Below, in pieces: positions 5,125 through 26,677 of a DNA stretch of 35,542 bases (position 1 is its first letter; every line of letters begins with the position of its first letter). The notes beneath the pieces were generated by a model. It was not told where the DNA came from. It searched no databases and saw only the letters and a list, made by a program, of their open reading frames with translations. The DNA is taken from the NCBI GenBank assembly GCA_014378105.1, contig JACMOI010000079.1, positions 1 to 35,542 of the forward strand. Reading direction: 5' to 3'. Position numbers and translations under genes: made by a program. Source of the stretch: Pseudopedobacter sp. (GTDB lineage: Bacteria; Bacteroidota; Bacteroidia; Sphingobacteriales; Sphingobacteriaceae).

Positions 5125-5312
5125 GTGGCATCAAAGGTTTCTATATGCGAACTGACGAATGGTGGGGCGGCAAAGAGAGCCATTTAGAAATGGGGTTTAC
5201 ACCTTATGCCTTAAAAATGGAATTTAAACAAATGTATTATACCCTTGGAGGAAAAATTCCGCATTGGGGGTTAGCCATGAGTGAGATTATTGGAGATCAT
5301 ACTTTCATATAA
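5109..5312 (+). pseudogene. C-terminal part of the frameshifted FAD oxidoreductase
   Basis: These 67 codons encode the conserved C-terminal region of the flavoprotein, including YGDMSGIKGFYMRTDEWWGG and a final amphipathic segment ending SEIIGDHTFI that would associate with the membrane. There is no independent start signal, since the apparent ATG lies inside the upstream reading frame. With one base restored near 5112, the two parts would join into a protein of about 420 residues, the expected size. It should be read as part of the gene starting at 4048. Confidence 0.75.
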
Positions 5313-5349
5313 TGGATATAAATAGTTACATTATTAAAAAAAAAGAAAA

Positions 5350-5736: not shown

Positions 5737-5777
5737 CTTTCTATTAAATTCCACAATTTTTTTACTCATTAATTAGC

Positions 5778-8119: not shown

Positions 8120-8121
8120 CT

Positions 8122-8802
8122 ATGGAAATGAAAGTCATAGAAGCAATAGGTATTTGTAAATCATTTCATGATCCGCTCCCCTTAAAAGTGCTTACTGATG
8201 TCAGTTTTTCCATCAATACTGGAGAATTTGTTTCTATTGTAGGAAAGTCGGGCTGTGGGAAATCTACTTTACTCTACATTTTATCTACTATGGATACCGG
8301 CTATGATGGAGAACTATTGTTGGATGGCATCAGTATGAAAAACAAAAAGGATGCAGAGCTTGCCAAGGTACGAAACGAAAAAATAGGTTTTGTATTTCAA
8401 TTCCATTATCTGCTTAATGAATTTAACAACCTGCGAAATGTCATGTTGCCCGGACTAAAATTTGGAAAACTCACCGCCAAAGAAGTGGAACATTATGCTT
8501 ACGAGAAACTGAAAATATTGGGGATAGAAAACGAGGCGCTAAAGTACCCCAACCAGTTGAGTGGTGGTCAAAAACAGCGGGTAGCAATTGCCCGAGCATT
8601 AATCAATGAGCCCCTAATTATTATGGGTGATGAACCAACTGGAAACTTGGATAAGCATAATGGTGATGTAGTGTTTAATATTTTTAAGGAACTGGCAGAG
8701 GAATACCACCAATCTTTATTAATTGTTACCCACGATTTGGATTTTGCTGCAAAAACCCATAGAACCATTACTATGGAAGATGGAAAAATAATTAATTCTT
8801 AA
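8122..8802 (+). CDS. LolD/MacB-type ABC transporter ATPase
   Basis: A 226-residue ATP-binding subunit. It shows Walker A GKSGCGKST (residues 41-49), the Q-loop VFQFH (91-95), signature LSGGQ (146-150), Walker B LIIMGDEPTGNLD (165-177) and the H-loop VTHD (near 205). The length and motifs fit the LolD/MacB/FtsE group that partners FtsX-type permeases, here the gene 2 nt upstream. A second ATG at 8128 is an alternative start. It is the last gene of the operon. The convergent BON gene ends 60 bp away with no clear terminator in between. Confidence 0.9.
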   Translation: MEMKVIEAIGICKSFHDPLPLKVLTDVSFSINTGEFVSIVGKSGCGKSTLLYILSTMDTGYDGELLLDGISMKNKKDAELAKVRNEKIGFVFQFHYLLNEFNNLRNVMLPGLKFGKLTAKEVEHYAYEKLKILGIENEALKYPNQLSGGQKQRVAIARALINEPLIIMGDEPTGNLDKHNGDVVFNIFKELAEEYHQSLLIVTHDLDFAAKTHRTITMEDGKIINS

Positions 8803-8861
8803 TAAAATCTTTTTAATGATTTAATTTAAAATGTTGTAATTGATGCAGGCTATGAGGCAAC

Positions 8862-9509
8862 TTATTCAATAATCAACTCATTAATTACCGCCAAAACACC
8901 CGGCGCATTCCACGCTATCTTTTCTGCCTCTTCTTTTTGATAAAGTGACTCTACCGTACCATTCAGAGTGATCGTGTTGTTTTCAACATTGACACGGATG
9001 TTTTGGTTAACAGTTGCGGAATATCTTAAAAGTGCATGCTCAATAATCCTTTTTTCTAAATGATCTTGTGTTTCTGCAACTAATTGAAGGTTGTTTGTAA
9101 ACATGCTAACACCCTTTACATTTCCTACTGATTTTTTCGCATCTTCTTTTTGGAAATTATAAGTCACTTGTCCATCAAGGGTAACATGGCCTTCTTCCAC
9201 CTTTACCTTGATGCGGTCCAGAGGAACCCAATTTTGATGCAGGTAATTGAGTACGCTCTTAGCAATTTCTTCATCAGTAATTTTAGTATTAGTGATGTTA
9301 TTAACTATGATATGTTCTATAATCGCTTTTACGCCATCAATGCTTTTAGTAATGCTTTCTACATGTAGTTTTTTCATATAGCTGTCCACCACACCTGATA
9401 AAGTAACCAGACCTTCATCAGCCTTTACAGTAACTTCTATATTTTTTATTAAGTGATCCCATTTGAAGGCATCCTGAATGTCTTTTTCTAAATCACGGTC
9501 ATTCTTCAT
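8862..9509 (-). CDS. Triple BON-domain protein (OsmY-like)
   Basis: A 215-residue protein with three BON repeats, about residues 3-70, 77-145 and 148-215. Each carries the pattern VxV-x-GxVTLxGxV and ends in a GV...V/I strand pair. BON domains bind phospholipids or other hydrophobic surfaces, and OsmY-type members are made under osmotic and envelope stress. No signal peptide is visible, so this copy may be cytoplasmic, unlike E. coli OsmY. It is divergent from the P-type ATPase gene across a 301-bp intergenic region that holds a FixK-like box. Confidence 0.85.
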   Translation of the reverse strand: MKNDRDLEKDIQDAFKWDHLIKNIEVTVKADEGLVTLSGVVDSYMKKLHVESITKSIDGVKAIIEHIIVNNITNTKITDEEIAKSVLNYLHQNWVPLDRIKVKVEEGHVTLDGQVTYNFQKEDAKKSVGNVKGVSMFTNNLQLVAETQDHLEKRIIEHALLRYSATVNQNIRVNVENNTITLNGTVESLYQKEEAEKIAWNAPGVLAVINELIIE

Positions 9510-9651
9510 CTGATCATCTATATTTATGAGTTGTGAAGTTCAGAAATTAGCTTGGCTACCTTGTTATGTAATTCTACTTTTAAGTTACATTATTCCCACT
9601 TTTTAATCTCTATTCTGGATTGACACAGAAGTGTTTCATATCCCAGCATTT

Positions 9652-9665
9652 ATGATGAGCATCAG
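9652..9665 (+). promoter_or_regulatory. FixK/FNR-like box upstream of the P-type ATPase gene
   Basis: ATGATGAGCATCAG contains the perfect core TGAT-N4-ATCA and matches 8 of 10 positions of TTGAT-N4-ATCAA. Its centre (9658.5) is 55 bp from the centre of the -7-like element, which puts it near -62 from the inferred start site, a class I activator position. Confidence 0.55.
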
Positions 9666-9709
9666 CCTTTGAGCTGACTTTTATCACTCTTTTACATAGT
9701 AGTTGCTAC

Positions 9710-9717
9710 TATCTTTA
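9710..9717 (+). promoter_or_regulatory. -7-like element of the P-type ATPase promoter
   Basis: TATCTTTA matches 7 of 8 positions of TAnnTTTG. No good -33 is seen, as expected for an activator-dependent promoter. The inferred start is near 9721, giving a leader of about 90 nt. Confidence 0.45.
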
Positions 9718-9810
9718 ATTACCTATGATATAACAAATTCATCGGTGTTGATGTCAGAATATGAATTCATTTTACAATTAATTTTATTTCATGATTTATA
9801 ATGGATATCA

Positions 9811-12522: not shown

Positions 12523-12602
12523 ATAAAGGCTAAAAGCTAAATGCACAAATCTTAAAGCTCATAAACTTTATAATCTGTAAATTCATCAAATAATTAAAAA
12601 AC

Positions 12603-13238
12603 ATGATTTCAAATACGGAGATACTGATAAGATTTTCCCTTGCATTGTTGTGGGGAGGTTTGGTAGGTGCAGAACAAGAATTGAGAGGAAAGAGTGCAGG
12701 TTTCCGTACCACCATCATGATCTCATTAGGAGCTTGCTTCTTCACATTAATGTCTATTGCTTTGGGAGTTCCAGACAATATTGACCGAATTGCATCCAAT
12801 ATTGTAACAGGCGTTGGATTTTTAGGTGCAGGAGTAATTTTTAAATATGAGAACCGTATCAATGGAATAACTACTGCTGCAACTATATGGGCAGTTGCAG
12901 CAGTAGGTATGGGTATTGGAGCGGGTTTTTATTTTCCATCAGCTTATGCCAGTCTTCTTATTCTTTTCACGCTAGGAGTTTTGCCTTACGTTGAAAGATC
13001 AATATCCAAAGTAAATCATTTTAGGGTAGTTAGAGTAGAGTGTTTGCAAACCGATGATGCTTTAAAAGCAATTGAAGATGCAATCAAAGAATCAGGCTTA
13101 AAATTTTCTTTGATTAGCCAAAAATGGGAAAAGGATATGGTCACCTTATCATGGAGGATTAAAGGAAAAGAGAAAAGCATTAAAAGCTTTATCCTATTCC
13201 TTAGAAAAAGTCTTTTAGTGCAAAAACTCGATTGTTGA
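12603..13238 (+). CDS. MgtC/SapB-family membrane protein
   Basis: A 211-residue protein with the MgtC signature near residues 15-40 (GGLVGAEQELRGKSAGFRTT). It has about four to five membrane helices up to residue 130 and a soluble C-terminal domain of about 80 residues. MgtC proteins are linked to growth at low magnesium and to acid or host stress, and are thought to modulate transporters rather than move Mg2+ themselves. It is 80 bp behind the P-type ATPase gene on the same strand with no terminator between, so the two may be co-transcribed. That would suit a shared role in cation balance. Confidence 0.88.
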   Translation: MISNTEILIRFSLALLWGGLVGAEQELRGKSAGFRTTIMISLGACFFTLMSIALGVPDNIDRIASNIVTGVGFLGAGVIFKYENRINGITTAATIWAVAAVGMGIGAGFYFPSAYASLLILFTLGVLPYVERSISKVNHFRVVRVECLQTDDALKAIEDAIKESGLKFSLISQKWEKDMVTLSWRIKGKEKSIKSFILFLRKSLLVQKLDC

Positions 13239-13358
13239 AAAGCAATTTCATAATTTTTCAATAAAGTCCATTGAAAAGGACAATGCGTTTAAATAAATAA
13301 ATCAGTCCATCACACCTGAGTAATAAGGCGAACTACTGAATAATTCTAGCGTAACAGC

Positions 13359-13379
13359 TTGTTTTTTGTTAAAAAACAA
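13359..13379. terminator. AT-rich hairpin between convergent mgtC-like and cupin genes
   Basis: TTGTTTTTT and AAAAAACAA form a nine-pair stem around GTT. It lies between two convergent genes and could terminate both. A second, weaker GC stem lies at about 13413-13435. The stem is AT-only, so the call is tentative. Confidence 0.4.
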
Positions 13380-13445
13380 TTAATCGAGAATAGGATAATC
13401 ATTAAATAGAATACAGGTACAGGATGCTGACCCTGTCCCTATATT

Positions 13446-13844
13446 TTACTCTGTAGTTGTGCCATCAAATCTTTCGCTGTTTTCTTCTGCATCCTTTTTT
13501 GTTTCTCTGGATATACCATCCTGATGGTTGGGAGGGCCGTAGATAGTGTATAGGCTCAAATTCACCTTATCATCAGTATTAACCACGTTGTGCTTTGCTC
13601 CTGCAGGTACAATAATGGCATCTCCAGCTTTTATGTAATATTCATTTCCATCTATGTAGCATATTCCATGTCCTCCTTCAATGCGGAAGAACTGGTCATT
13701 TGCTTGATGAACTTCTTCACCAATATTCGTTCCTGGGGGTAAATTCATCAGAACTAACTGCAGATGCCTGCCAGTATAAAGTACTTTTCTAAAATCGGTG
13801 TTATCAAGAGTACATTCCTCGATATTTCTTTTAAATCCTTTCAT
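13446..13844 (-). CDS. Cupin-domain protein
   Basis: A 132-residue single-domain cupin. Motif 1 is G-x-x-V-H-x6-F-x-R-x-E-x-G (GEEVHQANDQFFRIEGGHG, about 41-59). Motif 2 is PAGAKHNVVN (about 80-89). The metal-ligand histidines H46 and H85 are present. Its long tail after residue 105 is polar and probably disordered. The function (dioxygenase, isomerase or sensor) cannot be told. It is 58 bp downstream of the MCE gene on the same strand, so it may be the last gene of the lipid-transporter operon. Confidence 0.85.
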   Translation of the reverse strand: MKGFKRNIEECTLDNTDFRKVLYTGRHLQLVLMNLPPGTNIGEEVHQANDQFFRIEGGHGICYIDGNEYYIKAGDAIIVPAGAKHNVVNTDDKVNLSLYTIYGPPNHQDGISRETKKDAEENSERFDGTTTE

Positions 13845-13902
13845 ATGCTAATGTTTTTAAATTGCTTCAAATGGGTAATTTTATTAATTTTTAGACTTTT
13901 AG

Positions 13903-14892
13903 TTATTCTTTAACCTTAGCATTCTCCTTTTTTTCCTGTTTATTGAAATATCCTCTAAACAAAAAACTATGTTTGGTAGCGTCCATGATATCACTAAATC
14001 CGTTCGCACCTTTTTGGATATTATACAAACTATTGTTAAGGTTTTGCGTCATAGTGGAATCGCGAAGTAAAGCATGGAGCGGTCCTTTACCATAATTTAA
14101 GTCATAATCGAGGTCATTTACAGTGTTAGAAAGTTTTGCAGTAATTTTTTTAGCATTGCCACTAGTCATTCTCAAATCTATCACCGCATTTTTAAGATTT
14201 GATGCAAGCAGTGTATCTGTCAGAAGCACTCCGGCAGCTCCTCTTCCCTTTCGCATATTGTCAACAATCTGGTTAAGACCATAACTCATGTTATTGGTAT
14301 TTTTTGTAGCTAAGTTAATTTCATTGAGGGATGATTTTATACTCTTTCTAATTGAGGGATCGTTCATTAAATTAAAGATTTCACTGGTGTCCAAACTAAG
14401 TACAGTCTCTTTTAAAGCTTTAGCAATCGCAGCAACATCATCGTTGGTTTTAGAAAGTGTTTTAAGCATTTCTTCTGCACTAACCAATTTGCTTGTTTGT
14501 AGCATATCTCCGCTTACCACCTTTGCACTTGCTTGGCTTGAGGGTTCAATATTGATAATCTTATTGCCCATTAAGCCTTCTGTTCCTATAGCTGCCATTG
14601 CATTTTTCTTAATAAAAGGTTGTATCTTATTGTCAATCTGCATAGTTACCTCTATAATACTATCGGTAACCATATCAATTCTTTTTACCGTCCCAGCGTG
14701 GATGCCCGAAAAAAGTATATTATTTCCCTCCATCAAGCCACTGAGGTTATTAAAGCGGGCTTTAACTTCGAAGTCTCTTCCAAATATATTACTACTGTTA
14801 CCAAGCATATAAAAAGATACTATTAGCACCAATAGTCCAATAAGTACAAATAGCCCTAGTTTTATATTATTCCTTTGTGTCTTTTCCATCAT
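13903..14892 (-). CDS. MlaD/MCE-family lipid-binding protein
   Basis: A 329-residue protein with one N-terminal membrane anchor (about 12-31). An MCE domain follows (about 38-115) with the family pattern ARFNNLSGLMEGNNILFSG. The rest is a long helical periplasmic region rich in Asn and Lys. MlaD-type proteins form hexameric rings that carry phospholipids between inner and outer membranes. It is co-translated with the MlaF-like ATPase (2-nt gap) and MlaE-like permease. No MlaB, MlaC or MlaA partner is seen here, which is common in Bacteroidota. Confidence 0.88.
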   Translation of the reverse strand: MMEKTQRNNIKLGLFVLIGLLVLIVSFYMLGNSSNIFGRDFEVKARFNNLSGLMEGNNILFSGIHAGTVKRIDMVTDSIIEVTMQIDNKIQPFIKKNAMAAIGTEGLMGNKIINIEPSSQASAKVVSGDMLQTSKLVSAEEMLKTLSKTNDDVAAIAKALKETVLSLDTSEIFNLMNDPSIRKSIKSSLNEINLATKNTNNMSYGLNQIVDNMRKGRGAAGVLLTDTLLASNLKNAVIDLRMTSGNAKKITAKLSNTVNDLDYDLNYGKGPLHALLRDSTMTQNLNNSLYNIQKGANGFSDIMDATKHSFLFRGYFNKQEKKENAKVKE

Positions 14893-14894
14893 GT

Positions 14895-15668
14895 TTATTC
14901 AAAAAATTGATTAATTTTTGGATCCTTCGAACTTTCGAGCTTTTCATAGGTTCCATCAGCGTAACATTTACCTTCCAGCAGTAGCACTACACGATCTGCA
15001 ATGGTTTTTACGCAGTTCATATCGTGTGAAATAATAATTGACGAGGTCTTAAATTTTTTCTGTAGGGTAAGAATGAGTTGATCAATTTCTCTTGCTGTAA
15101 TCGGATCAAGCCCTGTGGTTGGCTCGTCATAAAGTATAATATCTGGTTTTAATATCAGCGTTCTGGCCAAGGCTATCCGTTTGAGCATCCCTCCAGATAG
15201 TTCTGCCGGCATCATCTCCGAGGTATGGGTAAGTCCCACGTTTTCAAGTGCTTCATTTACCATTTTTTTAACTTCAGTTTCCCCTAAATCTGTCCAGTGT
15301 CTACGCAAGGGAAATTCTAAATTTTCTTTTACTGTCATTGAATCATAGATTGCGTTTGCCTGAAAAAGAAAGCCGATTTTCATCCTTACTTTTGCCATTC
15401 CATCTTCATCTAACCCAGTAACCTCTTCACCAAAAACTTTTATACTTCCTTTGTCGGGTTTTAAAAGCCCAATAATACATTTGATTAATACTGATTTTCC
15501 TGCACCAGATTTCCCTAGTACAACTACGTTTTCCTCTTTTTTAATGCTCAATGAAAAATCTTCCAGAATCTTATTAGTCCCAAATTTTTTATAAAGATGT
15601 TCTATAACAATGACTGCATCGTTTGTCGCTTGCTCTTTAACTTCATTTGGTTTTAATTTCGTTTCCAT
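14895..15668 (-). CDS. MlaF-type ABC transporter ATPase
   Basis: A 257-residue ATPase. It has Walker A GKSGAGKS (about 52-59), signature LSGGMLKRIALARTL (about 156-170, with the Mla-type 'SGGM' variant), Walker B DIILYDEPTTGLD (about 174-186) and switch histidine SHD (about 213). The SGGM signature and the downstream MCE gene place it in the MlaF/TTG2A group, which powers lipid transport at the inner membrane. It lies 5 nt after the permease gene and 2 nt before the MCE gene. Confidence 0.9.
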   Translation of the reverse strand: METKLKPNEVKEQATNDAVIVIEHLYKKFGTNKILEDFSLSIKKEENVVVLGKSGAGKSVLIKCIIGLLKPDKGSIKVFGEEVTGLDEDGMAKVRMKIGFLFQANAIYDSMTVKENLEFPLRRHWTDLGETEVKKMVNEALENVGLTHTSEMMPAELSGGMLKRIALARTLILKPDIILYDEPTTGLDPITAREIDQLILTLQKKFKTSSIIISHDMNCVKTIADRVVLLLEGKCYADGTYEKLESSKDPKINQFFE

Positions 15669-15673
15669 TGCTA

Positions 15674-16444
15674 TTAGTTAAAACCAAGTAAGTTGGTGAA
15701 TTGAACAGTGAGCAGATCAAGAAAAAAGATCATCACCGAGGCAAGTACCACAGCAGAATTAGCAGATTTGCCAACGCCTTGAGTGCCCTTGGTTGAATTG
15801 AAGCCCTTGTAACAGCCAATTAAACCCACGGCAAAGCCAAAGAATACCGTTTTTATCACTGCCGGTATCACATCGCTATAGGTTAAGCTCTCAAATACTT
15901 GCAGAAAAAAGAATTTAATATTGGTAACCGATTTGATATTGACACCGATATAAGCTCCAAATAGCGAAACAGCATCTCCAAGAATAGTCAGTAACGGTAG
16001 CATTAAGCTAGTAGCAATCACTCGAGTAGCAACTAAATATTTGAAGGGATTTGTTCCGCTCACCTCCATGGAATCGATTTGTTCAGTCACTTTCATGGAG
16101 CCTAATTCGGCACCAATGCTACTCGCTATTTTTCCGGCAAAGATTAACGCCGTGATTACCGGTCCTATTTCTCTAACTATGGCTATACCTACCATTACAG
16201 GTAATTCGGATTGTACACCGTAGGCAACCAGCGAGGGGCGTAGCTGCATGGTGAGTACCAGTCCCATAATAAAACCCGTTAGTGCTACCAATGGAAAAGA
16301 ATTATAACCGATTAGATAACATTGCGCCAGCAATTCCTTAACCTCGTACTTAGGTTTAAGACCATGAGAGAAAAAACGACCAGCAAATCTGGAGATCTGC
16401 CCTGTTTGATCAAGGAAATCACGCGTATCTGAAATTATCGACAT
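15674..16444 (-). CDS. MlaE-type ABC transporter permease
   Basis: A 256-residue MlaE/TTG2B-family permease. The conserved core GxVLTMQLRP...GVQSELPVMVGIAIVREIGPV lies at residues about 65-100. The SIGAELGSMKVTEQIDSMEV motif lies at about 109-130. The predicted membrane helices and length are normal. It is the first gene of the lipid-transport operon with the ATPase, MCE protein and perhaps the cupin. A -7-like element (GATTTTTG on the minus strand, 16553-16560) lies about 110 bp upstream. Confidence 0.9.
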   Translation of the reverse strand: MSIISDTRDFLDQTGQISRFAGRFFSHGLKPKYEVKELLAQCYLIGYNSFPLVALTGFIMGLVLTMQLRPSLVAYGVQSELPVMVGIAIVREIGPVITALIFAGKIASSIGAELGSMKVTEQIDSMEVSGTNPFKYLVATRVIATSLMLPLLTILGDAVSLFGAYIGVNIKSVTNIKFFFLQVFESLTYSDVIPAVIKTVFFGFAVGLIGCYKGFNSTKGTQGVGKSANSAVVLASVMIFFLDLLTVQFTNLLGFN

Positions 16445-16731: not shown

Positions 16732-17769
16732 TTAACTGGTTAAAATCACTTTTAGCGCTTTTTCCTTGGCTGCGTTCCCAAATACCTCATAAGCTTCCAT
16801 AATCTCATCTAATTTAAAATGGTGTGTAATTAGGTTTTTTGGCTGTAGTTTACCAGACTGTACCGTTTTAAAAAGCAAAGGTGTGGTGGAGGTATCTACC
16901 AAACGGGTAGTAATGGTTATGTTTTTAGACCATAATTCTTCCAAGTGAAGCGTTACGCTTTTACCATGAACCCCGATATTCGCCAAGTGACCACCAGCTC
17001 CGATTATTTTTTCACATAATTCAAATGTTGCAGGTACACCTACCGCTTCTATAGCTACATCTACCCCTTTTTTATCAGTCAGTTTCATCACTTCATCTAC
17101 AGCATTTGATTTTGATGTGTTAATAGTATGTGTGGCCCCGAAGGTTTTTGCCAGAGCCAAACGGTTGTCATCCATATCAATCATGATGATTTCAGAAGGA
17201 CTATAAAACTTCGCCGTAAACAATGCAGCCATTCCAATAGGGCCAGCGCCAACAATAGCTAACACATCGCCAGGTTTTACCTGTCCATTTAAAACACCGC
17301 ATTCATAACCGGTAGGCAAAATATCGCTTAGCATTACTAAAGCTTCTTCATCGGCCCCAGCCGGAATTGGATATAAACTATTATCTGCATAAGGAATTCG
17401 TACATACTCTGCTTGTGTTCCATCTATCAGATTTCCAAGAATCCAGCCTCCATCTACACAATGCGAATACATAGCTTTTTTACAATATTCGCATTTACCG
17501 CAAGAGGTGATGCAGGAGATAATGACATGGTCACCTTTTTTAAAATTACTTACAGAAGGTCCGGTCTCTTCAACAATCCCCACTCCTTCATGCCCAATGA
17601 TTCTGCCATCCGTTACCGCCGGCACATCACCTTTCATAATGTGTAGATCTGTCCCACAAATAGTGGTCTTCAAAATTTTAACGATGGCATCTGTTGATTG
17701 AGTAATAGTAGGCTTAGGTTTTTCTTCCCATGCTTTTTTTCCAGGTCCGTGATATACTAATGCTTTCAT
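16732..17769 (-). CDS. Zinc-dependent alcohol dehydrogenase
   Basis: A 345-residue medium-chain dehydrogenase. Catalytic zinc ligands are C38, H60 and E61. The structural zinc lobe has C90, C93, C96 and C104. The NAD(P)-binding Rossmann loop is VGAGPIGMAAL (about 173-183). It interconverts alcohols and aldehydes or ketones in the cytoplasm; the precise substrate is unknown, and reoxidising NADH at low oxygen is a plausible role. It is a single-gene unit: its own terminator follows, and the hemN terminator lies upstream. A -7-like AAGCTTTG lies at 17809-17816. A broken paralogue of its 3' end lies near 3.1 kb. Confidence 0.9.
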   Translation of the reverse strand: MKALVYHGPGKKAWEEKPKPTITQSTDAIVKILKTTICGTDLHIMKGDVPAVTDGRIIGHEGVGIVEETGPSVSNFKKGDHVIISCITSCGKCEYCKKAMYSHCVDGGWILGNLIDGTQAEYVRIPYADNSLYPIPAGADEEALVMLSDILPTGYECGVLNGQVKPGDVLAIVGAGPIGMAALFTAKFYSPSEIIMIDMDDNRLALAKTFGATHTINTSKSNAVDEVMKLTDKKGVDVAIEAVGVPATFELCEKIIGAGGHLANIGVHGKSVTLHLEELWSKNITITTRLVDTSTTPLLFKTVQSGKLQPKNLITHHFKLDEIMEAYEVFGNAAKEKALKVILTS

Positions 17770-17901: not shown

Positions 17902-19263
17902 TTAAGCCATACTGAATAACTGTTCCTTTGGTTTTGATCCATGAAGTCGGTCATCAAAAGCTGAACAGATGTTTCTTAAAAAACGTTTTCCTTTTGGAGT
18001 CACCAAAATCTGATGGTCGGTTTTATTGATTAAACCATCCAATATCATTTCCTGTAATCGGTACAAAACACGTTTAAAATTGTGGTTTAATAAATCTAAC
18101 CTATCCCAATTTGTTTCTCCTTTGCACATGACATTCAAAATATGCTTCCGCATGAGTAAATCGTCTTTAGTTAGAAAATGTCCTTTAAAAAGGGGGAACT
18201 CACCAGCCTCAATCAATTCAAGATAATCCTCTACTTTTTTAACATTTTGAGCAAAAGCGGTCCAGCTGTCACTGATGGAAGAAACTCCTAAACCTATCAT
18301 CAATTGTGTATATTGATGGGTATAGCCCATAAAGTTACGGTGAAGCTGTTGGTTTTGTTGCGCCTGATATAAGCTATCGGTAGGTAAAGCAAAATGATCC
18401 ATTCCTATTTCCTGATAGCCTGCTTCTATCAACCTACTCCTACCTAATTCATATAATGCTTGTTTTAATTCATAATTGGGTAAATCCAATTCTGTAAACT
18501 TTCTTTGTCCAGGTTTGATCCAGGGCACATGAGCATAATTATAAAAAGCAATGCGATCTGGTTTTAGCAAAATCACTTTATCCAAAGTGTTTTGTAATCC
18601 TTCAATATTCTGTAAAGGCAAACCGTAAATCAAATCGTAATTAATAGAGCGATAACCTAAATTACGGGCATTGTCTGTCACCATTTTCACTTGCTCAAAT
18701 GTTTGATGTCGATTGATGATCTGTTGTACTTTAGGATCGAAATCTTGAATTCCTAAACTCAATCGTTTAAAACCCATTTCGAATAAAGTTTCTAAATGTT
18801 TTTGAGTTGTATTTGCGGGATGCGCTTCAAAACTAAACTCTGCATGAGGATGAATTTCACAGCCGGCTAAGATATTTTTGATTAATGATTTTAAATTTTG
18901 AGGAGTGAAAAAAGTAGGTGTTCCTCCACCCAAATGTAATTCTTTGATGATGGGTTTTTCCAAAAATAAATCCTCATACATCATCCACTCCTTTTCAACA
19001 GCTTTGATGTATGGATCTTCTACTGTATGATTTTTGGTGATACGCGTATTACAGCCACAATAAGTACATAAACTCTCGCAATAAGGTAAGTGAATGTATA
19101 AACTGATGCCGCTTTTCTGATTGCTTTGTTTAAATGCCTTTTTAACTTCAGCTAACCATACGATTTTGCTAAAACTATTCCTATCCCAGTAAGGAACTGT
19201 TGGGTAGCTCGTATATCTAGGTACGGGAACATTATATTTTTTGATGAGTGTATTGTATTTCAT
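17902..19263 (-). CDS. hemN: Oxygen-independent coproporphyrinogen III dehydrogenase
   Basis: A 453-residue radical-SAM enzyme converting coproporphyrinogen III to protoporphyrinogen IX without oxygen, a late haem biosynthesis step. The iron-sulfur motif is C62-x3-C66-x2-C69-x-C71, with Y56 before it; these are the same positions as in E. coli HemN. GGGTP (SAM contact) and the C-terminal HemN domain are present, and the length is typical, so this is HemN and not the shorter HemW. It is the second gene of an operon, 15 nt after the D-lactate-dehydrogenase-like gene. A FixK/FNR-like box upstream of the operon matches the classic low-oxygen control of hemN in other bacteria. Confidence 0.95.
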   Translation of the reverse strand: MKYNTLIKKYNVPVPRYTSYPTVPYWDRNSFSKIVWLAEVKKAFKQSNQKSGISLYIHLPYCESLCTYCGCNTRITKNHTVEDPYIKAVEKEWMMYEDLFLEKPIIKELHLGGGTPTFFTPQNLKSLIKNILAGCEIHPHAEFSFEAHPANTTQKHLETLFEMGFKRLSLGIQDFDPKVQQIINRHQTFEQVKMVTDNARNLGYRSINYDLIYGLPLQNIEGLQNTLDKVILLKPDRIAFYNYAHVPWIKPGQRKFTELDLPNYELKQALYELGRSRLIEAGYQEIGMDHFALPTDSLYQAQQNQQLHRNFMGYTHQYTQLMIGLGVSSISDSWTAFAQNVKKVEDYLELIEAGEFPLFKGHFLTKDDLLMRKHILNVMCKGETNWDRLDLLNHNFKRVLYRLQEMILDGLINKTDHQILVTPKGKRFLRNICSAFDDRLHGSKPKEQLFSMA

Positions 19264-19278
19264 AGCGTTATTACAAAA

Positions 19279-19695
19279 TTAATCTTTTGCGCTTTTTGGT
19301 CGATAAGGATTAGAACTGATACCTATTTTTCCTGCAGATTTCTTTGCCTGCCAATTATCTAAATTTTTGATGGTTTGTATGGCCATTTCCTCATGATTTT
19401 CATCTGATACGCTAGCCAGTTTAATTCCTAAAATACTTGCTTGCACTTTGTCTATATGGTCGGTATCATTAGAGCGGTTGCTAATGTATTTAACATTTAA
19501 ATTTTTAAGCTCATTGATCACATTTGCTGATAAATCATCCTTATTGCTTACAATTACAGCATCTTTTCCTTCGGAAAACTGTACAGTTTGCAGATTAAGG
19601 GCATTAGATATGAGTGTAATTTCATGTTTTTTTTGATTTGCCTTAGCCATGAGCTCCTTCTCGAATGGCTGAGTGCTATAAACAACTGCTTTCAT
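19279..19695 (-). CDS. Stand-alone D-lactate-dehydrogenase-like substrate-binding domain
   Basis: A 138-residue protein whose first about 100 residues match the N-terminal substrate-binding half of D-lactate dehydrogenases (MKAVVYSTQPFEKE, KKHEITLIS, GKDAVIV, VKYISNRSNDTDHID, GIKLASV). The NAD-binding Rossmann domain is absent. The tail AIQTIKNLDNWQAKK resembles the last helix of such enzymes, so this could be an internal deletion that keeps one folded lobe; a simple truncation is the alternative. Without NAD and the catalytic Arg/Glu/His set it cannot be a dehydrogenase. It leads the hemN operon with a FixK-like box and -7 element upstream. Its intact frame and position suggest it is retained for some role. 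Confidence 0.7.
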   Translation of the reverse strand: MKAVVYSTQPFEKELMAKANQKKHEITLISNALNLQTVQFSEGKDAVIVSNKDDLSANVINELKNLNVKYISNRSNDTDHIDKVQASILGIKLASVSDENHEEMAIQTIKNLDNWQAKKSAGKIGISSNPYRPKSAKD

Positions 19696-19724: not shown

Positions 19725-19732
19725 CAAATCTA
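19725..19732 (-). promoter_or_regulatory. -7 element of the hemN operon
   Basis: The minus strand reads TAGATTTG, a perfect TAnnTTTG. It lies 30 bp before the first start codon, giving a leader of about 25 nt. The -33 region is poor, consistent with a need for an activator. Confidence 0.6.
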
Positions 19733-19776
19733 TTCAATGATGTTGTTTTAATTTATGAGACTAGTCAGTCATAAAT

Positions 19777-19790
19777 ATGATTCTTATCAA
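19777..19790 (-). promoter_or_regulatory. FixK/FNR-like box of the hemN operon
   Basis: The minus strand reads TTGATAAGAATCAT, matching 9 of 10 positions of TTGAT-N4-ATCAA. Its centre (19783.5) is exactly 55 bp from the centre of the -7 element, about -62 from the inferred start, a class I activator position. Confidence 0.7.
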
Positions 19791-20057: not shown

Positions 20058-21104
20058 TTAATTTTTCATTTTAGAGAGTTTATCCTCATTAATGATTTGG
20101 ATTTCGCCACCCTTTTTCTCGATGAGTTTTTCTTCTTTAAAATCGCTGAGTGTACGGCTTACTGTTTCGGTCGCCATACCAGCCATGGCGGCAAGATCCT
20201 CTCGAGAAATTTTGAAGTTAGATTTTTTATTGATTTCTTTAATTCTTATCAATGTTTCAGCTAATCTTTTCCTTACCGAATGATAAGCCAACTGAACCAA
20301 TTGCTCGTCTTTAATTTGCAAACTGGATGATAATAATTGAATGAATTGCATGGCATGTGAAGGGTACTTATTCAGGATGTCATCAACTTGATCTTTGTGG
20401 AGCATACAAATACTACTGTCTTCCATTGCTTCAGCATTCTCGGTATGTAACCTGCCAATTAAAGCATCGTGAATACCAAAATACTCATCAGTTTGATAAA
20501 TTTCCGTCAAAAACTCCCTGCCATCTTCACTTTGCTTTGTAATTTTTATTTTGCCACTTAATACCAGATAAATGCCTTGCGTGGCATCACCATCATAATA
20601 AATAATTTGACCTTTTTTTACGTTACGTATTTTCTTTAACTCAACTAAATTTTTTAAGGCATTACTTCCATCTTCCTTGTTGCTAAAATCAGCTAATTGT
20701 CTTAGACCTTTAGTATAGAAATCTTGCTGTTTGTTTTTTTTATTTAAACGACATTCTACAGCATTCAACAATTCCATATCGTCAAAAGGTTTAGTCAGGT
20801 AATCATCAGCTCCCATTTCCATTGCTTTACGCATATCAGCTCTTTCTGCTTTTGCGGTAAGAAATATAAAAGGAATAACCGCCGTAGTTGGGTTTTTCTC
20901 TAACAAATAGAGTACGCCATAGCCATCTAATTCGGGCATCATGATATCACAAATAATTAATGATGGAATCTCTTTCTGAGCCATTTCTACTCCTAATTTT
21001 CCATTACTAGCTACGGAGACTTGATAGCCTGCCAAATCAAGAATTTCCGCTGTACTCTCTCTAATATCTTCGTTATCCTCAATAATTAAGATTCTATCTT
21101 TCAT
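20058..21104 (-). CDS. Response regulator fused to a CRP/FNR module (REC-cNBD-HTH)
   Basis: A 348-residue protein. Residues 1-120 are a receiver domain with phospho-acceptor D53 and conserved K105. Residues about 145-260 are a cNMP-binding-type beta-roll. Residues about 270-335 are a CRP/FNR winged helix whose recognition helix carries E313-T-V-S316-R317. In FNR and FixK, ExxSR reads TTGAT half-sites. There are no N-terminal cysteines for an iron-sulfur cluster, so control is expected through phosphorylation. It starts 2 nt after the FixL-like kinase gene, its obvious partner. The layout amounts to FixJ's receiver attached directly to a FixK-type DNA-binding protein. Predicted target boxes lie nearby. 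Confidence 0.92.
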   Translation of the reverse strand: MKDRILIIEDNEDIRESTAEILDLAGYQVSVASNGKLGVEMAQKEIPSLIICDIMMPELDGYGVLYLLEKNPTTAVIPFIFLTAKAERADMRKAMEMGADDYLTKPFDDMELLNAVECRLNKKNKQQDFYTKGLRQLADFSNKEDGSNALKNLVELKKIRNVKKGQIIYYDGDATQGIYLVLSGKIKITKQSEDGREFLTEIYQTDEYFGIHDALIGRLHTENAEAMEDSSICMLHKDQVDDILNKYPSHAMQFIQLLSSSLQIKDEQLVQLAYHSVRKRLAETLIRIKEINKKSNFKISREDLAAMAGMATETVSRTLSDFKEEKLIEKKGGEIQIINEDKLSKMKN

Positions 21105-21106
21105 GT

Positions 21107-22291
21107 TTACAGTTTGAAAATCAATGTAAATTTAGTGCCCTTATTTTCCGCACTCTCAAATTCAACCTCCCCATTCAATAATTTCACATATCTATCTACA
21201 ATGTTCAATCCTAAACCTGTTCCTGGGATATTCCCAGTATTGTGTGCCCTAAAAAATGCTTGAAAAAGATGCTTTTGCTCACTTAATGGAATACCTATTC
21301 CATTATCAGAAACAATAATAAAGCAATTTTCATCAGTAATCTCGGTATTAAATTCTATAAATGTATTTTCTCCTGAATATTTAATAGCATTAGAAATTAG
21401 ATTAATGATAGAATTCTTTAATAAACCAGCATCGGTATTAAGCGTACTATGTATACCTGTGTGCTGATAAATGATATTTTGATTTTGTTTGGCTACCATT
21501 TGCATCTCTTCGGCAATTTCTTCTGAAAATTTTACCAAATGAACAGGGCTGAATTTAGGTTCGATAATTCCAGTTTCCAATCTTTCTAAAGAGAGGAAAT
21601 CATTAAGGATGGTTGTTAAATTTCCGATCGCAATTTTAATTTTGTTGACATGCTTGCCAATATTTGGATTGTGATATTCTATAGAATATTTATCTATTAA
21701 AGAAGCTGATAACTGTATAGAACTTAAAGGCGTACGAAACTCATGTGATGCCATGGATACAAATCGACTTTTAAGTTGGTTGAGCTCTTTTTCCTTTTCT
21801 AGCGAAAAACTCACCTCTTCTTTAGCTTTTTGGATCTCTGAAATAAGGGACTGCAGTTTTTCTGTTCGGTCTTCTACCAACGATTCCAACTTGTTGGTGT
21901 ATTCTATTAATTGCTCTTCTGCATTTTTTTCTCGAGTTAAATCGTGGATGAATCCGTTGTAGATAATTCTTCCATCATATTGAACTTCACTTACTGCCAA
22001 TCTAAATGGAAATTGAGTACCGTTCTTTTTCTTTCCTTTTACTTCACGGCCTTTACCTATTATATGCGGATCTCTAGTTTCTTGGTATCTTTTTAAATAT
22101 TGATCGTGTTGGGAGTGATCAGGCTCAGGCATCAACATGTTGATGTTTTCACCAATGACTTCTGTTTGTTTATACCCAAAAAGCTTACAACCAGCAGGGT
22201 TGATAGATTCTATAATTCCTCTATCATCAATAGTAATGATTCCATCTATTGCATTATCTATAATAGCCTTTAGTAAAGCGGTATTATTCAT
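21107..22291 (-). CDS. FixL-like PAS histidine kinase (probable haem oxygen sensor)
   Basis: A 394-residue soluble kinase with no membrane segments. Residues 8-120 are a PAS domain close to FixL: MPEPDHSQHDQYLKRY contains H62 at the FixL haem-ligand position, with R68, H76 and R82 at the spacings of R206, H214 and R220 of Bradyrhizobium FixL. A distal residue that is Ile218 there is Lys80 here. A coiled coil (about 120-170) leads to the HisKA domain with H183-EFRTP and a HATPase domain with NAIKYSG, DNGIGI and GTGLGL. Haem binding is inferred, not shown. Its -7 element (22297-22304) lies only 6 nt before the ATG, and a FixK-like box overlaps the promoter, suggesting self-control. Confidence 0.9.
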   Translation of the reverse strand: MNNTALLKAIIDNAIDGIITIDDRGIIESINPAGCKLFGYKQTEVIGENINMLMPEPDHSQHDQYLKRYQETRDPHIIGKGREVKGKKKNGTQFPFRLAVSEVQYDGRIIYNGFIHDLTREKNAEEQLIEYTNKLESLVEDRTEKLQSLISEIQKAKEEVSFSLEKEKELNQLKSRFVSMASHEFRTPLSSIQLSASLIDKYSIEYHNPNIGKHVNKIKIAIGNLTTILNDFLSLERLETGIIEPKFSPVHLVKFSEEIAEEMQMVAKQNQNIIYQHTGIHSTLNTDAGLLKNSIINLISNAIKYSGENTFIEFNTEITDENCFIIVSDNGIGIPLSEQKHLFQAFFRAHNTGNIPGTGLGLNIVDRYVKLLNGEVEFESAENKGTKFTLIFKL

Positions 22292-22351: not shown

Positions 22352-22365
22352 TTGTTTTAGATCAC
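22352..22365 (+). promoter_or_regulatory. FixK/FNR-like box upstream of yceI
   Basis: TTGTTTTAGATCAC matches 8 of 10 positions of TTGAT-N4-ATCAA. Its centre is exactly 55 bp from the centre of the -7 element at 22410-22417. Confidence 0.5.
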
Positions 22366-22451: not shown

Positions 22452-23075
22452 ATGAAAACTTTAAAATTTCAGTCAATAACCTCTCCGCAAATTAAAGTAG
22501 GTTTATTCATCATCATCTTTTTCTTGCTGATTTTAACAGCCTTTAACCTAAGTGCACAAACCACTAGCTATCAATCCATTCCAGCAACATCAAATGTTAA
22601 GGTAACCGGCTCATCTAATTTACACGCCTGGAGCATGGAAAATAACCATTTAACAGCTGATGTAGCATTTACATTTAAAGACAATAAACTAAATGACATG
22701 ACTGCTTTAAATCTTACGATGAAGGTAAAGGAACTTAAAAGTAATGAGGATTTATTAAACAGCAGAGCTTACAAAGCAATGAATGCAGATAAATATACAA
22801 CCATCAACTTTAAACTGAGTTCCGCTTCAGCTATGCCATTATCAAACGGACATTTCACCATTAAAGCTTATGGAAAGCTTGAAATTGCTGGAATTACAAA
22901 AGATATAGTTCTTTACGCTGATGCTGTACAAAATTCAGATAAGACTATTAATTGCGTTGGCTCAGAAAAATTAAAAATGAGCGATTATGGGATTAAACCT
23001 CCAACATTTATGTTCGGAGCGCTAAAAGTAGTTGACGATATCAACATCAGTTTCAATATAAAATTCAAAAATTAA
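22452..23075 (+). CDS. YceI-family periplasmic protein
   Basis: A 207-residue protein. A hydrophobic segment at about 18-36 ending in LSAQ is a signal peptide. The rest is the YceI lipocalin-like beta barrel: VKVTGSSNLHAWSMEN near the start, KELKSNEDLLNSRAYKAMNADKY in the middle and SDYGIKPPTFMFGALKV at the end. YceI proteins bind polyisoprenoids such as quinones in the periplasm. A barrel protein follows 32 bp downstream, probably in the same operon, and a divergent YceI relative and a cytochrome b561 gene are close by. YceI and cytochrome b561 genes are often neighbours. A FixK-like box and good -7 element lie upstream. Confidence 0.88.
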   Translation: MKTLKFQSITSPQIKVGLFIIIFFLLILTAFNLSAQTTSYQSIPATSNVKVTGSSNLHAWSMENNHLTADVAFTFKDNKLNDMTALNLTMKVKELKSNEDLLNSRAYKAMNADKYTTINFKLSSASAMPLSNGHFTIKAYGKLEIAGITKDIVLYADAVQNSDKTINCVGSEKLKMSDYGIKPPTFMFGALKVVDDINISFNIKFKN

Positions 23076-23107
23076 TATCAAACCTATAGTCAATAATAAA
23101 CAACATC

Positions 23108-24442
23108 ATGAAAACACTAATAAAAACTATTTTTAAAAATACAGCTGTTGCTGCTATTTTAATCAGCCCTCTACTATCTCTTGGCCAAGACACTACTAGA
23201 GTAGAAGATGGCGTAAAAACAAGAATTGCAAATTTACGCCCTTACAATCAATCAGGGATCAATGTTTTTGAAACAAAAAAAGATCAAAACGCTCCTTTTG
23301 ACGGATTAAAAGTAAGATTTGGTGCTGGATTCACTCAGTCTTTCCAAAACTTAAAACACGAAAATACTTCACCAGTTCCCACAAACGCTTTATATAAAAT
23401 TACGCCCGGCTTCAACACTGCAAACGCAAATTTATATATGGATGTGCAATTGGCTGATGGAATACGTTTAAACTTAACAAGTTACCTATCATCTAGACAC
23501 CATAACGAAACTTGGGTAAAAGGGGGTTATATACAATTTGACAAGCTTGCATTTAAAGGAGAGGTATGGGATATGATTATGAGTATCGCTACCATTAAAG
23601 TTGGACACATGGAGATAAATTATGGTGATCAACATTTTAGACGTTCTGATGGTGGACATACACTTTATAACCCTTTTGTAGAAAATTATATTATGGATGA
23701 ATTTGCCACAGAAATTGGTGGTGAAGTTTACTTACATCTTGGTAATGTGACAGGAATGGCTGCAATTTCTAACGGAATGATTAAAGGTAATGTTGCCGAA
23801 ATTGCTCCAACTCCGCAAGATGCAAATATCCACAAATCTCCATCATTTTATTTTAAAGGCGCTTATGATAAACAACTAAATACTGATGTAAGGGTACGTT
23901 TAGCTGCATCTTACTATACCAATAATAGCTCAGGAGGTAATACCTTATTTGGTGGCGACCGTTCAGGTTCAAATTATTTCTTGGTAATGGAAAAAGTTGG
24001 CTCAACTACTGATGGTAATGCTTTCTCTGGTCGTTTTAACCCTGGTTTTTCTAAAGTAATTCATACTACTCAATTAAACGGTTTCATAAAAGCAGCTGGA
24101 TTTGAGCTATTTGGAACCTATGAATTTGCCAATGGTAGAAGTAAAACAGAAACTGATACCAGAAAAGCAAATCAGTTTGCAATTGATGGCGTTTACAGAT
24201 TTGGTCACACAGAAAACCTTTTTATTGGTGCAAGATATAATACTGTAAAAGCAAGGTTGACAGGAATGACAAGTGACGTTTCAGTAGATAGATTGGCATT
24301 CTCAGGTGGTTGGTTTTTAACTCGTAACATTTTATTAAAAGCTGAGTATAGCGATCAAAAATACAATGATTTCTTAGCTAGTGATGTGAGAAATGGCGGT
24401 AAATTCCACGGATATGTGGTACAAGCCGTAGTAGGATTTTAA
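23108..24442 (+). CDS. Outer-membrane beta-barrel protein (porin-like)
   Basis: A 444-residue protein with a signal peptide (residues 1 to about 26, ending LGQD). Many alternating-pattern strands follow (GLKVRFGAGFTQSF, NANLYMDVQLADGIRLNL, FELFGTYEFANG, NLFIGARYNTVKA, NILLKAEYSDQKY), and the C-terminal strand ends in Phe (VVQAVVGF), the usual outer-membrane insertion signal. It looks like a phosphate-selective-porin-type or uncharacterised barrel; the solute is unknown. It follows yceI by 32 bp and has a terminator after it. Barrel topology is confident, the exact family is not. Confidence 0.75.
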   Translation: MKTLIKTIFKNTAVAAILISPLLSLGQDTTRVEDGVKTRIANLRPYNQSGINVFETKKDQNAPFDGLKVRFGAGFTQSFQNLKHENTSPVPTNALYKITPGFNTANANLYMDVQLADGIRLNLTSYLSSRHHNETWVKGGYIQFDKLAFKGEVWDMIMSIATIKVGHMEINYGDQHFRRSDGGHTLYNPFVENYIMDEFATEIGGEVYLHLGNVTGMAAISNGMIKGNVAEIAPTPQDANIHKSPSFYFKGAYDKQLNTDVRVRLAASYYTNNSSGGNTLFGGDRSGSNYFLVMEKVGSTTDGNAFSGRFNPGFSKVIHTTQLNGFIKAAGFELFGTYEFANGRSKTETDTRKANQFAIDGVYRFGHTENLFIGARYNTVKARLTGMTSDVSVDRLAFSGGWFLTRNILLKAEYSDQKYNDFLASDVRNGGKFHGYVVQAVVGF

Positions 24443-24465
24443 GTTTTCTACATTTTTAAATTGAT

Positions 24466-24497
24466 AAGTCAGGTTGTGTGAAGCAGCCTGACTTTTT
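24466..24497 (+). terminator. Intrinsic terminator after the barrel-protein gene
   Basis: AAGTCAGGTTG and CAGCCTGACTT pair (one G-U) around a seven-base loop and are followed by five T. The next gene starts only 16 bp later, so its expression depends on readthrough or on a start inside this region. Confidence 0.85.
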
Positions 24498-24512
24498 AAC
24501 AATCCAATAATC

Positions 24513-25124
24513 ATGTTCGTCAAAAAGATCTTAGTATTATTCACTGTTTTCATCCTCGATTCAGGATTTAACCTTTATTCCAATCAGGAAATATCGTCTT
24601 CTAAGACGATGCTAGTGAATAAATCAGGATCATTAATTGTAAATGGAAGCACTTCAGTTAACCAATTTGACTGTATTGTTACCAATTATTGTAAGCCAGA
24701 TACCATCGTTTTTGTAGCAAACCAATCAAATAATTTCATTAAACTAAGTGGAGATATTTTAATACCTATTCAAAGCTTTGATTGCCATAATAAAATGATG
24801 ACTGCCGAGCTTCGCAAAACTTTAAAAGCTAAAGAATATCCCTATTTAAGAATCCACTTTGTTAGCTTAGATAAATATCCTTCATTGAATAGTCAAAAAG
24901 AACACATTAAAGGAGTTGTAATTATTGAGCTAGCAAAAGTGAGGAAACAGTTTGATATAAATTTTGACTTTTATAAGGATGCAAATCAAACTATACACAT
25001 GCTAGGCTCCAGAGATGTGAATTTCTCTAATTTCAATATCACTCCGCCAACTAAATTAGGTGGAATGATAAAAACTAAAGACCAATTAGGAATTGAGTTT
25101 CATTTGCAACTCGAAGAAATTTAG
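24513..25124 (+). CDS. Divergent YceI-like periplasmic protein
   Basis: A 203-residue protein with an N-terminal hydrophobic signal (about 5-20). A YceI-like pattern follows: NGSTSVNQFDCIVTNY in place of GSSNLHAW, LIPIQSFDCHNKMMTAELRKTLKAKEYP in the middle, and VNFSNFNITPPTKLGGMIKTKDQ at the end. The middle and end match the YceI domain well. It carries several cysteines (FDCIV, NYC, FDCH) absent from the first YceI protein. It lies right behind a terminator, and its stop codon overlaps that of the convergent cytochrome b gene. Confidence 0.75.
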   Translation: MFVKKILVLFTVFILDSGFNLYSNQEISSSKTMLVNKSGSLIVNGSTSVNQFDCIVTNYCKPDTIVFVANQSNNFIKLSGDILIPIQSFDCHNKMMTAELRKTLKAKEYPYLRIHFVSLDKYPSLNSQKEHIKGVVIIELAKVRKQFDINFDFYKDANQTIHMLGSRDVNFSNFNITPPTKLGGMIKTKDQLGIEFHLQLEEI

Positions 25125-26253: not shown

Positions 26254-26677
26254 CTTATTTATTTTTAACTATTCATAGAAAATCAAACACTTTTCTTCAA
26301 AATATTTTAAAAATCGACTAAAAAAGTGACAATTAAAATGATGAAAATCATTAATTAAGATGATGAATAGAATACAGAAATGTTGAAATTTCAAATGAAT
26401 CGAAAATTTCATTTTAGATGGCTTCAGAAATTTAAAAAACAATCCTAATGAAAGTGAAAGCATTAAATTTCAGGTCAGGAGTAAAGTTAACGGCCGAATA
26501 AAGTTTAATAGTGGTGTTTATATAGCGCTTAAAATTTTTAATAAAAATATTAATAAAAATAGTCTATATAAATAGAAGTACCCCAAATTCAGGTTTATTT
26601 AACTTTTTATTATTATTTTTATTTAAGGTTAAACAAAATTCATCTATCCAGTTAATTGATTCACATTATCTAACATT
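26254..26677. other. Divergent AT-rich intergenic region
   Basis: No convincing coding sequence. It contains the FixK-like box at 26338-26351 and separates two divergent genes. A 64-codon frame on the minus strand (26269-26463) has low-complexity composition and covers the box, so it is probably not a gene. Confidence 0.5.
26338..26351 (-). promoter_or_regulatory. FixK/FNR-like palindrome upstream of the cytochrome b operon
   Basis: ATGATGAAAATCAT is a palindrome with the perfect core TGAT-N4-ATCA. A weak -7-like AGTGTTTG on the minus strand (26284-26291) is centred 57 bp away. Confidence 0.5.

Follow-up and report, generated by a model that had tools for sequence, protein, structure and literature searches.

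FNR-, FnrN- and ANR-type proteins control the genes of the cbb3 oxidase and hemN. In the FixL-FixJ-FixK system of rhizobia and Caulobacter the sensor is a haem-PAS histidine kinase, and genes for the cbb3 oxidase and for haem synthesis are among the targets of FixK-type regulators (PMC4999443). In Rhizobium leguminosarum, a FixL-type sensor acts on fixNOQP through a CRP/FNR protein in an hFixL-FxkR-FixK pathway, and FnrN, which carries a cysteine cluster, acts at the same operator (PMC7888657). Here we analyze a locus of Pseudopedobacter sp. (Bacteroidota; Sphingobacteriaceae) in which the gene for a FixL-like histidine kinase adjoins a gene that fuses a receiver domain to a CRP/FNR-type regulator. 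The whole stretch of DNA analyzed, referred to below as the window, comprises positions 1 to 35,542 of contig JACMOI010000079.1, and the gene pair occupies positions 20058 to 22291. The pair is probably (roughly 70%) a two-component O2 switch for micro-oxic life that directly activates cbb3 oxidase and haem genes. A search of the largely open literature yielded no recognizable description of such a kinase/fusion pair or of FixL-type control in Bacteroidota, although one may exist elsewhere, and in the same literature no description was found of O2 sensing in Bacteroidota without an FNR of the cysteine-cluster type (Cys-FNR).

A FixL-like kinase gene adjoins a gene for a receiver-CRP/FNR fusion

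The kinase and regulator genes both lie on the minus strand, with the kinase gene upstream and 2 bp between them. The features of the two genes are as follows.

21107..22291, minus strand: FixL-like, predicted haem-PAS histidine kinase, PAS-HisKA-HATPase, 394 amino acids (Pfam, FixL match, alignment)
21941..22276, minus strand: haem-type PAS domain, kinase residues 6 to 117 (Pfam PF00989 and ungapped FixL 1dp6 match)
22106..22108, minus strand: His62 codon, predicted proximal haem ligand (H200 of FixL); invariant in a 22-row kinase alignment
22052..22054, minus strand: Lys80 codon, distal position (Ile218 of FixL; Met95 of DosP by spacing; PAS alignments)
22046..22048, minus strand: Arg82 codon, equivalent of FixL Arg220 (PAS alignment)
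21743..21745, minus strand: His183 codon, predicted phospho-acceptor; invariant in the 22-row kinase alignment
20058..21104, minus strand: receiver-CRP/FNR fusion regulator, 348 amino acids (Pfam, 24-row fusion alignment)
20754..21092, minus strand: receiver domain, residues 5 to 117, with phospho-acceptor Asp53 and Lys105 (Pfam, fusion alignment)
20070..20627, minus strand: CRP/FNR module, cNMP-binding fold plus HTH_Crp_2, with E313xxS316R317 (Pfam, alignment, PDB matches)

Pfam recognized PAS, HisKA and HATPase_c modules in the kinase, and the PAS domain aligned without gaps to FixL chains of Bradyrhizobium japonicum (best chain, 1dp6; E, 3e-34). Escherichia coli DosP was also matched (E, 2e-16). 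Residues H62, R68, H76, K80, R82 and H183 are all in place, with H62 in the place of the proximal histidine of FixL-type kinases and R82 in that of the O2-stabilizing arginine, R220. The alignment thus agrees with a preliminary description of this DNA in which H62, R68, H76 and R82 had been placed at FixL spacing. With the NCBIfam model of the rhizobial FixL equivalog the kinase scored 160 bits against a cutoff of 850, and it does not belong to that equivalog.

In the regulator, Pfam found Response_reg, cNMP_binding and HTH_Crp_2 domains, with D53, T83, K105 and the segment Glu313-Thr-Val-Ser316-Arg317 in place. Across 24 aligned fusions D53, T83, K105, E313 and R317 were invariant; Ser316 was replaced by Ile or Val in distant relatives. 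Because its only cysteines are at positions 52, 118 and 233, the regulator is without an Fe-S cluster motif. The domain and residue checks therefore bear out the earlier view of the adjacent protein as a receiver-CRP/FNR fusion with D53, K105, ExxSR at residues 313 to 317 and no Fe-S cysteines. The full-domain matches of kinase and regulator are strong, far beyond chance.

The preliminary description had also read the regulator as FixJ and FixK combined in one protein, giving a one-step haem-to-DNA circuit. The output domain of FixJ is a LuxR/GerE-type DNA-binding domain. Pfam found no FixJ-type output domain in the regulator, where cNMP_binding and HTH_Crp_2 stand instead. The receiver scored 92 bits with the RpaB model, 90 with PhoB and 67 with FixJ (FixJ cutoff, 255), and the effector scored 85 bits with Fnr versus 74 with FixK. 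The nearest PDB neighbours of the CRP part were 2gau (Crp/Fnr family), 4ev0 (Crp-family regulator) and 5cvr (FNR-type regulator), with FixK2 (4i2o) ranking lower (E, 2e-7). A literal fusion of FixJ with FixK was rejected because the receiver prefers RpaB and PhoB, the effector prefers Fnr and the FixJ output is absent. As far as the scores go, the regulator would be FixLJ-FixK-like in its working and not a FixJ-FixK fusion by descent. The one-step wiring, on the other hand, is favoured by the operon, by the co-occurrence with cbb3 and hemN genes and by the operators at activator positions described below.

Distribution of the gene pair and variation of the predicted haem-PAS domain

A survey for the same gene pair, which the preliminary description had suggested, covered 201 genomes of the family and 395 drawn from the phylum; a fusion was counted at an E value of ≤1e-50. 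The fusion was found in 154 of the family genomes and 56 of the phylum genomes. A scan of named genomes gave a best 80 loci, taken with about 6 kb on each side, that include Pedobacter, Sphingobacterium, Runella, Dyadobacter, Flavobacterium shii and Niastella. A kinase gene lay directly upstream and on the same strand for 98 of 104 distinct fusion proteins. Two loci (L050 and L085) are from metagenome-assembled genome records labelled Alphaproteobacteria and Thalassobius, yet carry a Bacteroidota gene, and L050 is almost identical to Runella loci; both contigs are probably mis-binned.

Residues of the PAS domain were counted in the 88 partner kinases, out of the 98, with an alignable domain. 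The proximal haem histidine was present at position 62 in 86 of them; the two rows without it (L094 and L099) came from PAS-only alignments at 30% identity, and full-length alignments give His in both. A published survey of the FixL/DosP PAS cluster found this histidine to be the main determinant of haem binding, present in about 60% of members (PMC10468136), so that retention of His62 among the partner kinases lies above this background. An apo or non-haem sensor that keeps the histidine for other reasons is, in our judgement, a very improbable reading of the PAS domain: although the haem itself is a prediction from sequence, His62 is retained at this level despite a variable distal position.

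At position 80, 35 kinases had Ile, 9 had Lys and 8 had His, and the remainder were spread over ten other residues. On the regulator tree it changed about 30 times (seven times for Lys versus the rest) and position 62 twice. These counts weaken the earlier suggestion that Lys80 might block haem binding, which it need not do. Since the haem histidine stays while the distal position varies freely, abolition of haem binding by Lys80 appears unlikely, and this residue may instead tune the sensor.

An alternative is that haem is bound by the PAS domain but serves to sense redox, CO or NO, because Lys80 ligates or crowds the iron, with the remaining circuit the same. By spacing, position 80 is the site of Met95, the axial haem ligand of DosP (PMC4263535); Lys occupies it here and in close relatives (L009/L038, genome G075; L011, genome G065), and Lys or His occupies it in 17 of the 88 aligned kinases. 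However, the kinase retains Arg82, and in sister lineages that have this gene pair position 80 is Ile, Thr (L010) or Met (L017), so the output has seemingly not changed while the residue drifted. We regard a signal other than O2 as quite unlikely.

Genomic association of the fusion gene with ccoN and hemN

ccoN, called by TIGR00780 over its cutoff, was present in 148 of the 201 family genomes. Fusion and ccoN occurred together in 139 genomes, the fusion alone in 15, ccoN alone in 9 and neither in 38 (Fisher p, 2e-20, with kinship of the genomes not corrected for). Distances could be taken in 124 genomes for which the places of both genes were listed: ccoN was no more than 20 kb from the fusion gene in 77 (median among these, 7.7 kb) and on a different contig in 27, the window's own genome among them.

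Within the genus (18 genomes), the fusion was found in all 12 genomes with ccoN and in one of the six without it (G143, 77% complete), and hemN scored over its cutoff in 13 of 13 fusion-bearing and none of five fusion-free genomes. The best 80 named loci contained hemN homologues (≥405 bits) in 36 cases, ccoG in 22, ccoI in 18, ccoP in 16 and ccoN in 12. At one locus (L270) the gene order is kinase, fusion, D-lactate dehydrogenase-like (ldh-like) gene and hemN, followed by the cco cluster on the opposite strand; the order is the same at L271, where the fusion gene was placed through the family-genome search. Two genes of this neighbourhood are found in the window.

17902..19263, minus strand: hemN, oxygen-independent coproporphyrinogen III oxidase, a predicted target (TIGR00538, 438.7 bits; cutoff, 325)
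19279..19695, minus strand: short D-lactate dehydrogenase-like open reading frame, 138 amino acids, first gene behind the predicted operator (profile scores, locus comparison)

The ldh-like frame corresponds to the N-terminal part only; the neighbour is about 350 amino acids long in Pedobacter, Pelobium and Mucilaginibacter loci (L039 to L043), and a short form of about 140 amino acids is also seen in most of the Sphingobacterium loci listed.

A common operator core at the candidate target promoters

Palindromes of all 5-mers, with gaps of 3 to 8 and at most one mismatch, were scanned in nonredundant upstream regions (≤300 bp) of five gene sets. The same core, TGAY-N4-RTCA, was returned for four of them, those of ccoN, hemN, the ldh-like gene and the kinase gene; no such core was returned for the ccoG set (12 regions). 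It was present in 34 of 48 ccoN, 19 of 28 hemN, 14 of 33 ldh-like and 25 of 67 kinase gene regions, and in 33 of 34, 5 of 9, 7 of 7 and 9 of 26, respectively, when regions of at least 200 bp were considered. Gaps of 2, 3 and 5 to 8 in place of 4 gave zero to three regions at those four gene sets. Elsewhere, the core was found in 6 of 7 ccoI and 4 of 20 fusion gene regions. The control consisted of 253 upstream regions of other neighbourhood genes, from which stretches selected for a FixK box had been removed; core density was 1.6 per kb there versus 2.4 to 4.5 per kb at the four target sets. CRP/FNR sites of the form TGAY-N4-RTCA are thus common in these genomes and richest at ccoN, hemN, ldh-like and kinase promoters.

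The window's own genome contains 376 copies of TGAY-N4-RTCA versus 144 of the reversed pattern. There are eight exact cores in the window versus 2.9 expected, a number reached by 1 of 100 shuffles, and five of the eight are intergenic, while intergenic DNA makes up 11% of bases 1 to 32784. The base before TGA is usually A, G or C. The perfect FixK box, TTGAT-N4-ATCAA, which the preliminary description had brought in from rhizobia, did not hold up as the operator: the outer T is not the rule, and the 41 copies in the genome, versus 35 with N3 and 30 with N5, are not clearly an enrichment. In the retrieved stretches, 6 of 43 FixK boxes were intergenic (two of them one site in overlapping stretches), compared with 2 of 15 for N5 and 1 of 15 for N3, and when up to two mismatches were allowed the window gave 54 matches versus 52.9 expected.

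The outer base was G in 33 of 58 half-sites of Ser316 regulators and in 1 of 74 half-sites of Ile316 regulators. This correlation was considered as direct proof of binding and dropped, because residue 316 changed once on the tree, which makes the pattern a single event and not independent evidence.

The operators could be read mainly by another CRP/FNR protein while the fusion controls something else. TGAY-N4-RTCA is generic for the CRP/FNR superfamily, and the genome encodes other CRP-like proteins, such as L002, whose helix, E-N-V-I-R, resembles that of the distant fusions. Nevertheless, we consider this unlikely, because no Cys-FNR match was found in the window's own genome at an E value of ≤1e-40 and because the fusion gene is linked to, and co-occurs with, the target genes (linkage was computed for the fusion gene).

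Fixed distances between operators and -7 elements

The motif TAnnTTTG, which we take to be the Bacteroidota -7 consensus, lay downstream of the operator centre at exactly 29 bp in 17 sites and at 51 to 52 bp in 24, for a total of 41 of 107 sites. About 0.2 sites were expected per distance, and the other distances between -60 and 100 gave single counts at nine only. The fixed distances were found at 13 of 14 ldh-like sites (51 to 52 bp), 12 of 21 hemN sites (ten of them at 29 bp) and 14 of 42 ccoN sites. Thirty-five of the 41 fitting sites are in known fusion genomes, two are in FNR-only genomes (G004 and G046, both at 29 bp) and four are in G201, G202 and G205, outside the genomes classified by regulator. 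At ccoN, the operators of fusion genomes without FNR fit at 51 to 52 bp and those of the four genomes of genus g5, a genus with both regulators in two of these four, fit at 29 bp. The same distances stood out when the best 80 named loci were scanned in full, with 28 sites at 29 bp, 27 at 51 bp and 7 at 52 bp versus a mean of 0.95 per distance.

Operator centres near -41 and -62 are, from CRP, the class II and class I activator positions. With TAnnTTTG set at about -7, the centres of the operators fall near -41 and -62, and the fixed distances therefore fit class II and class I activation. The regulator might instead be a repressor, or act independently of phosphorylation with the receiver serving for dimerization only, and most operators at kinase promoters are indeed off activator distance. 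We find this distinctly improbable, given that the hemN and ldh-like operators counted above at exactly 29 or 51 to 52 bp point to contact with polymerase and not to blocking, and that the active-site residues of the receiver are invariant in all 24 rows.

The predicted sites in the window are as follows.

19778..19789, minus strand: predicted operator TGATAAGAATCA upstream of ldh-hemN, exact, centre 51 bp before the -7 element (operator scan, distance test)
19756..19767, minus strand: second predicted operator TGACTAGTCTCA, one mismatch, 29 bp before the same -7 element (distance test)
19725..19732, minus strand: predicted -7 element TAGATTTG of the ldh-hemN promoter (distance test)
9653..9664, plus strand: predicted operator TGATGAGCATCA, exact, 51 bp before TATCTTTA, upstream of a P-type ATPase gene at 9811 (operator scan, distance test)
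9675..9686, plus strand: predicted operator TGACTTTTATCA, exact, 29 bp before the same TATCTTTA (operator scan, distance test)
22353..22364, plus strand: possible operator, weak, one mismatch, 51 bp before TACATTTG, ahead of the divergent genes from 22452 (distance test)

In the same genome, the operator of ccoN, on another contig, is 51 bp before TACTTTTA, and that of an open reading frame ahead of a ccoI-like gene is 29 bp before TATCTTAG; both -7 elements are imperfect. At 9653 to 9717, upstream of the cation P-type ATPase gene, tandem operators precede a single -7-like element, TATCTTTA, by 51 and 29 bp; the element departs from the consensus at one position, and the arrangement suggests class I plus class II control. 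Further intergenic TGAY-N4-RTCA cores at 26339 to 26350 and 3352 to 3363 have no recognizable -7 element at 29 or 51 to 52 bp.

Stand-alone FNR proteins in genomes without the fusion

A stand-alone protein of the FNR type is encoded in all nine family genomes with ccoN and without the fusion; in at least five of these its gene lies about 4 kb from ccoN. An N-terminal C-x2-C-x8-C cluster was present in all three of these proteins that were read (L285, L286 and L290). A search with one Cys-FNR gave matches at E values below 1e-50 in 13 of the 201 genomes, including all nine FNR-only genomes, and of these 13 only G029 and G058 also carry the fusion. Weaker matches (1e-43 to 8e-41) in six more genomes, five of them fusion bearing, we take for other paralogues. 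As the 139 genomes with the fusion and the nine matched by this search cover all 148 ccoN-bearing genomes, every one of these has one regulator or the other.

Such a pattern would be expected if the sensor had been swapped while the regulon stayed the same. A wider proposal, which we advance tentatively and at slightly under even odds, is that a phosphorylation-gated FNR runs micro-oxic respiration in Bacteroidota. A haem-PAS kinase would act directly on a receiver-FNR fusion that, at the ccoN promoter and through operators of the same type, stands in for the Cys-FNR of sister genomes. The distal haem position would have been adjusted again and again, with Ile, Lys, His, Met and Thr among its residues, and some lineages, including this one, may be Lys-ligated or six-coordinate with a shifted O2 threshold.

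Proposed mechanism

To the computed gene pair, with its domain and residue identities, its co-occurrence and linkage with ccoN and hemN, its operators and the fixed -7 distance, a working switch would add haem, O2 as the signal, phosphotransfer and occupancy of the sites by the fusion rather than by another CRP-family protein. Haem would be held by the kinase PAS domain through His62. Bound O2 would inhibit autophosphorylation of the kinase, a polarity that we infer by analogy from FixL. When O2 falls, deoxy-haem would free the kinase, His183 would be phosphorylated, and the phosphate would move to Asp53 of the adjacent regulator. The phosphorylated regulator would then bind TGAY-N4-RTCA as a dimer through its FNR-like module and, standing at class I or class II positions, would recruit RNA polymerase. 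The genes turned on would be those for the cbb3 oxidase, hemN for oxygen-independent haem synthesis and the ldh-like gene, with the P-type ATPase gene a probable further target in the window.

Several observations weigh against this switch. Fifteen of the 201 family genomes carry the fusion without ccoN, and the genomes are related, which inflates the Fisher and distance p values, as these are without correction for phylogeny. A directly upstream kinase gene is missing for six of the 104 fusions. No FixL-like PAS domain could be aligned in seven partner kinases of seemingly full length, which look to have another sensor (L049, L064, L068, L073, L079, L085 and L112), and three more that are short, truncated or frame-broken (L012, L020 and L109) gave no PAS alignment. 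At six of these seven loci, L073 being the exception, another protein whose PAS domain matches and has the His is encoded 1.4 to 3.8 kb upstream. The operator core is rare inside the cco cluster (ccoG, 1 of 12 regions; ccoP, 2 of 19) and occurs, almost only with gap 4, in 57 of the 253 control regions (85 of 385 with the FixK-box-selected stretches included), as a generic CRP/FNR core would. It is present at ccoN in all six FNR-only genomes represented (of nine). Because the core is generic and is also found at ccoN of Cys-FNR genomes, its occupancy by the fusion regulator is a prediction, and the helix of L002, not clearly unlike those of the fusions, could read similar sites. Of the 30 sites at kinase promoters, only 2 are at a fixed -7 distance, and the core scan found no exact operator at the kinase promoter of the window itself. 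Finally, ccoN of two FNR-only genomes fits at 29 bp, while fusion genomes mostly fit at 51 to 52 bp.

If the proposed O2 switch is real, the pair is a compact haem-to-DNA switch and a candidate micro-oxic master regulator for many Bacteroidota. The predicted operator and promoter geometry could be used to find its regulon, which would be a natural case of one regulon under either of two chemically different O2 sensors.

Neighbouring genes

Divergent from the kinase gene, at 22452 to 25124, are three genes that by eye are YceI-like, porin-like and YceI-like; homologues are found at the same place in a sister genome (L038; regulator 93% identical) and, by eye, in L270. The stretch from 3584 to 16444 contains the P-type ATPase gene and, by eye, BON-domain, ABC, MCE and MlaE-like genes. 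In L038 the homologue of the gene at 2599 to 3036 directly follows that of the gene at 16732 to 17769, and because these flanking homologues adjoin, the stretch is missing there or located elsewhere.

Comparison with known systems

The locus shares with FixL-FixJ-FixK the predicted haem-PAS histidine kinase and the TGA-N6-TCA core of the operator. It differs in that the receiver is fused to an FNR-like module, so that the fixK transcription step is gone, in the absence of a FixJ-type output and in the outer operator base, which is A, G or C instead of T. The R. leguminosarum pathway likewise joins a FixL-type sensor to a CRP/FNR protein but employs a hybrid kinase and two regulators, FxkR and then FixK, where a single regulator is found here. 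With FNR, FnrN and ANR the fusion has in common an FNR-like effector, the ExxSR helix and the TGA-N6-TCA palindrome, whereas a phosphorylatable receiver stands in place of the Fe-S cysteines. The haem-PAS domain of E. coli DosP has its proximal His and distal Arg spaced as they are here; DosP, however, acts as a phosphodiesterase and its axial ligand is Met95, and the protein described here has a kinase output and Lys80.

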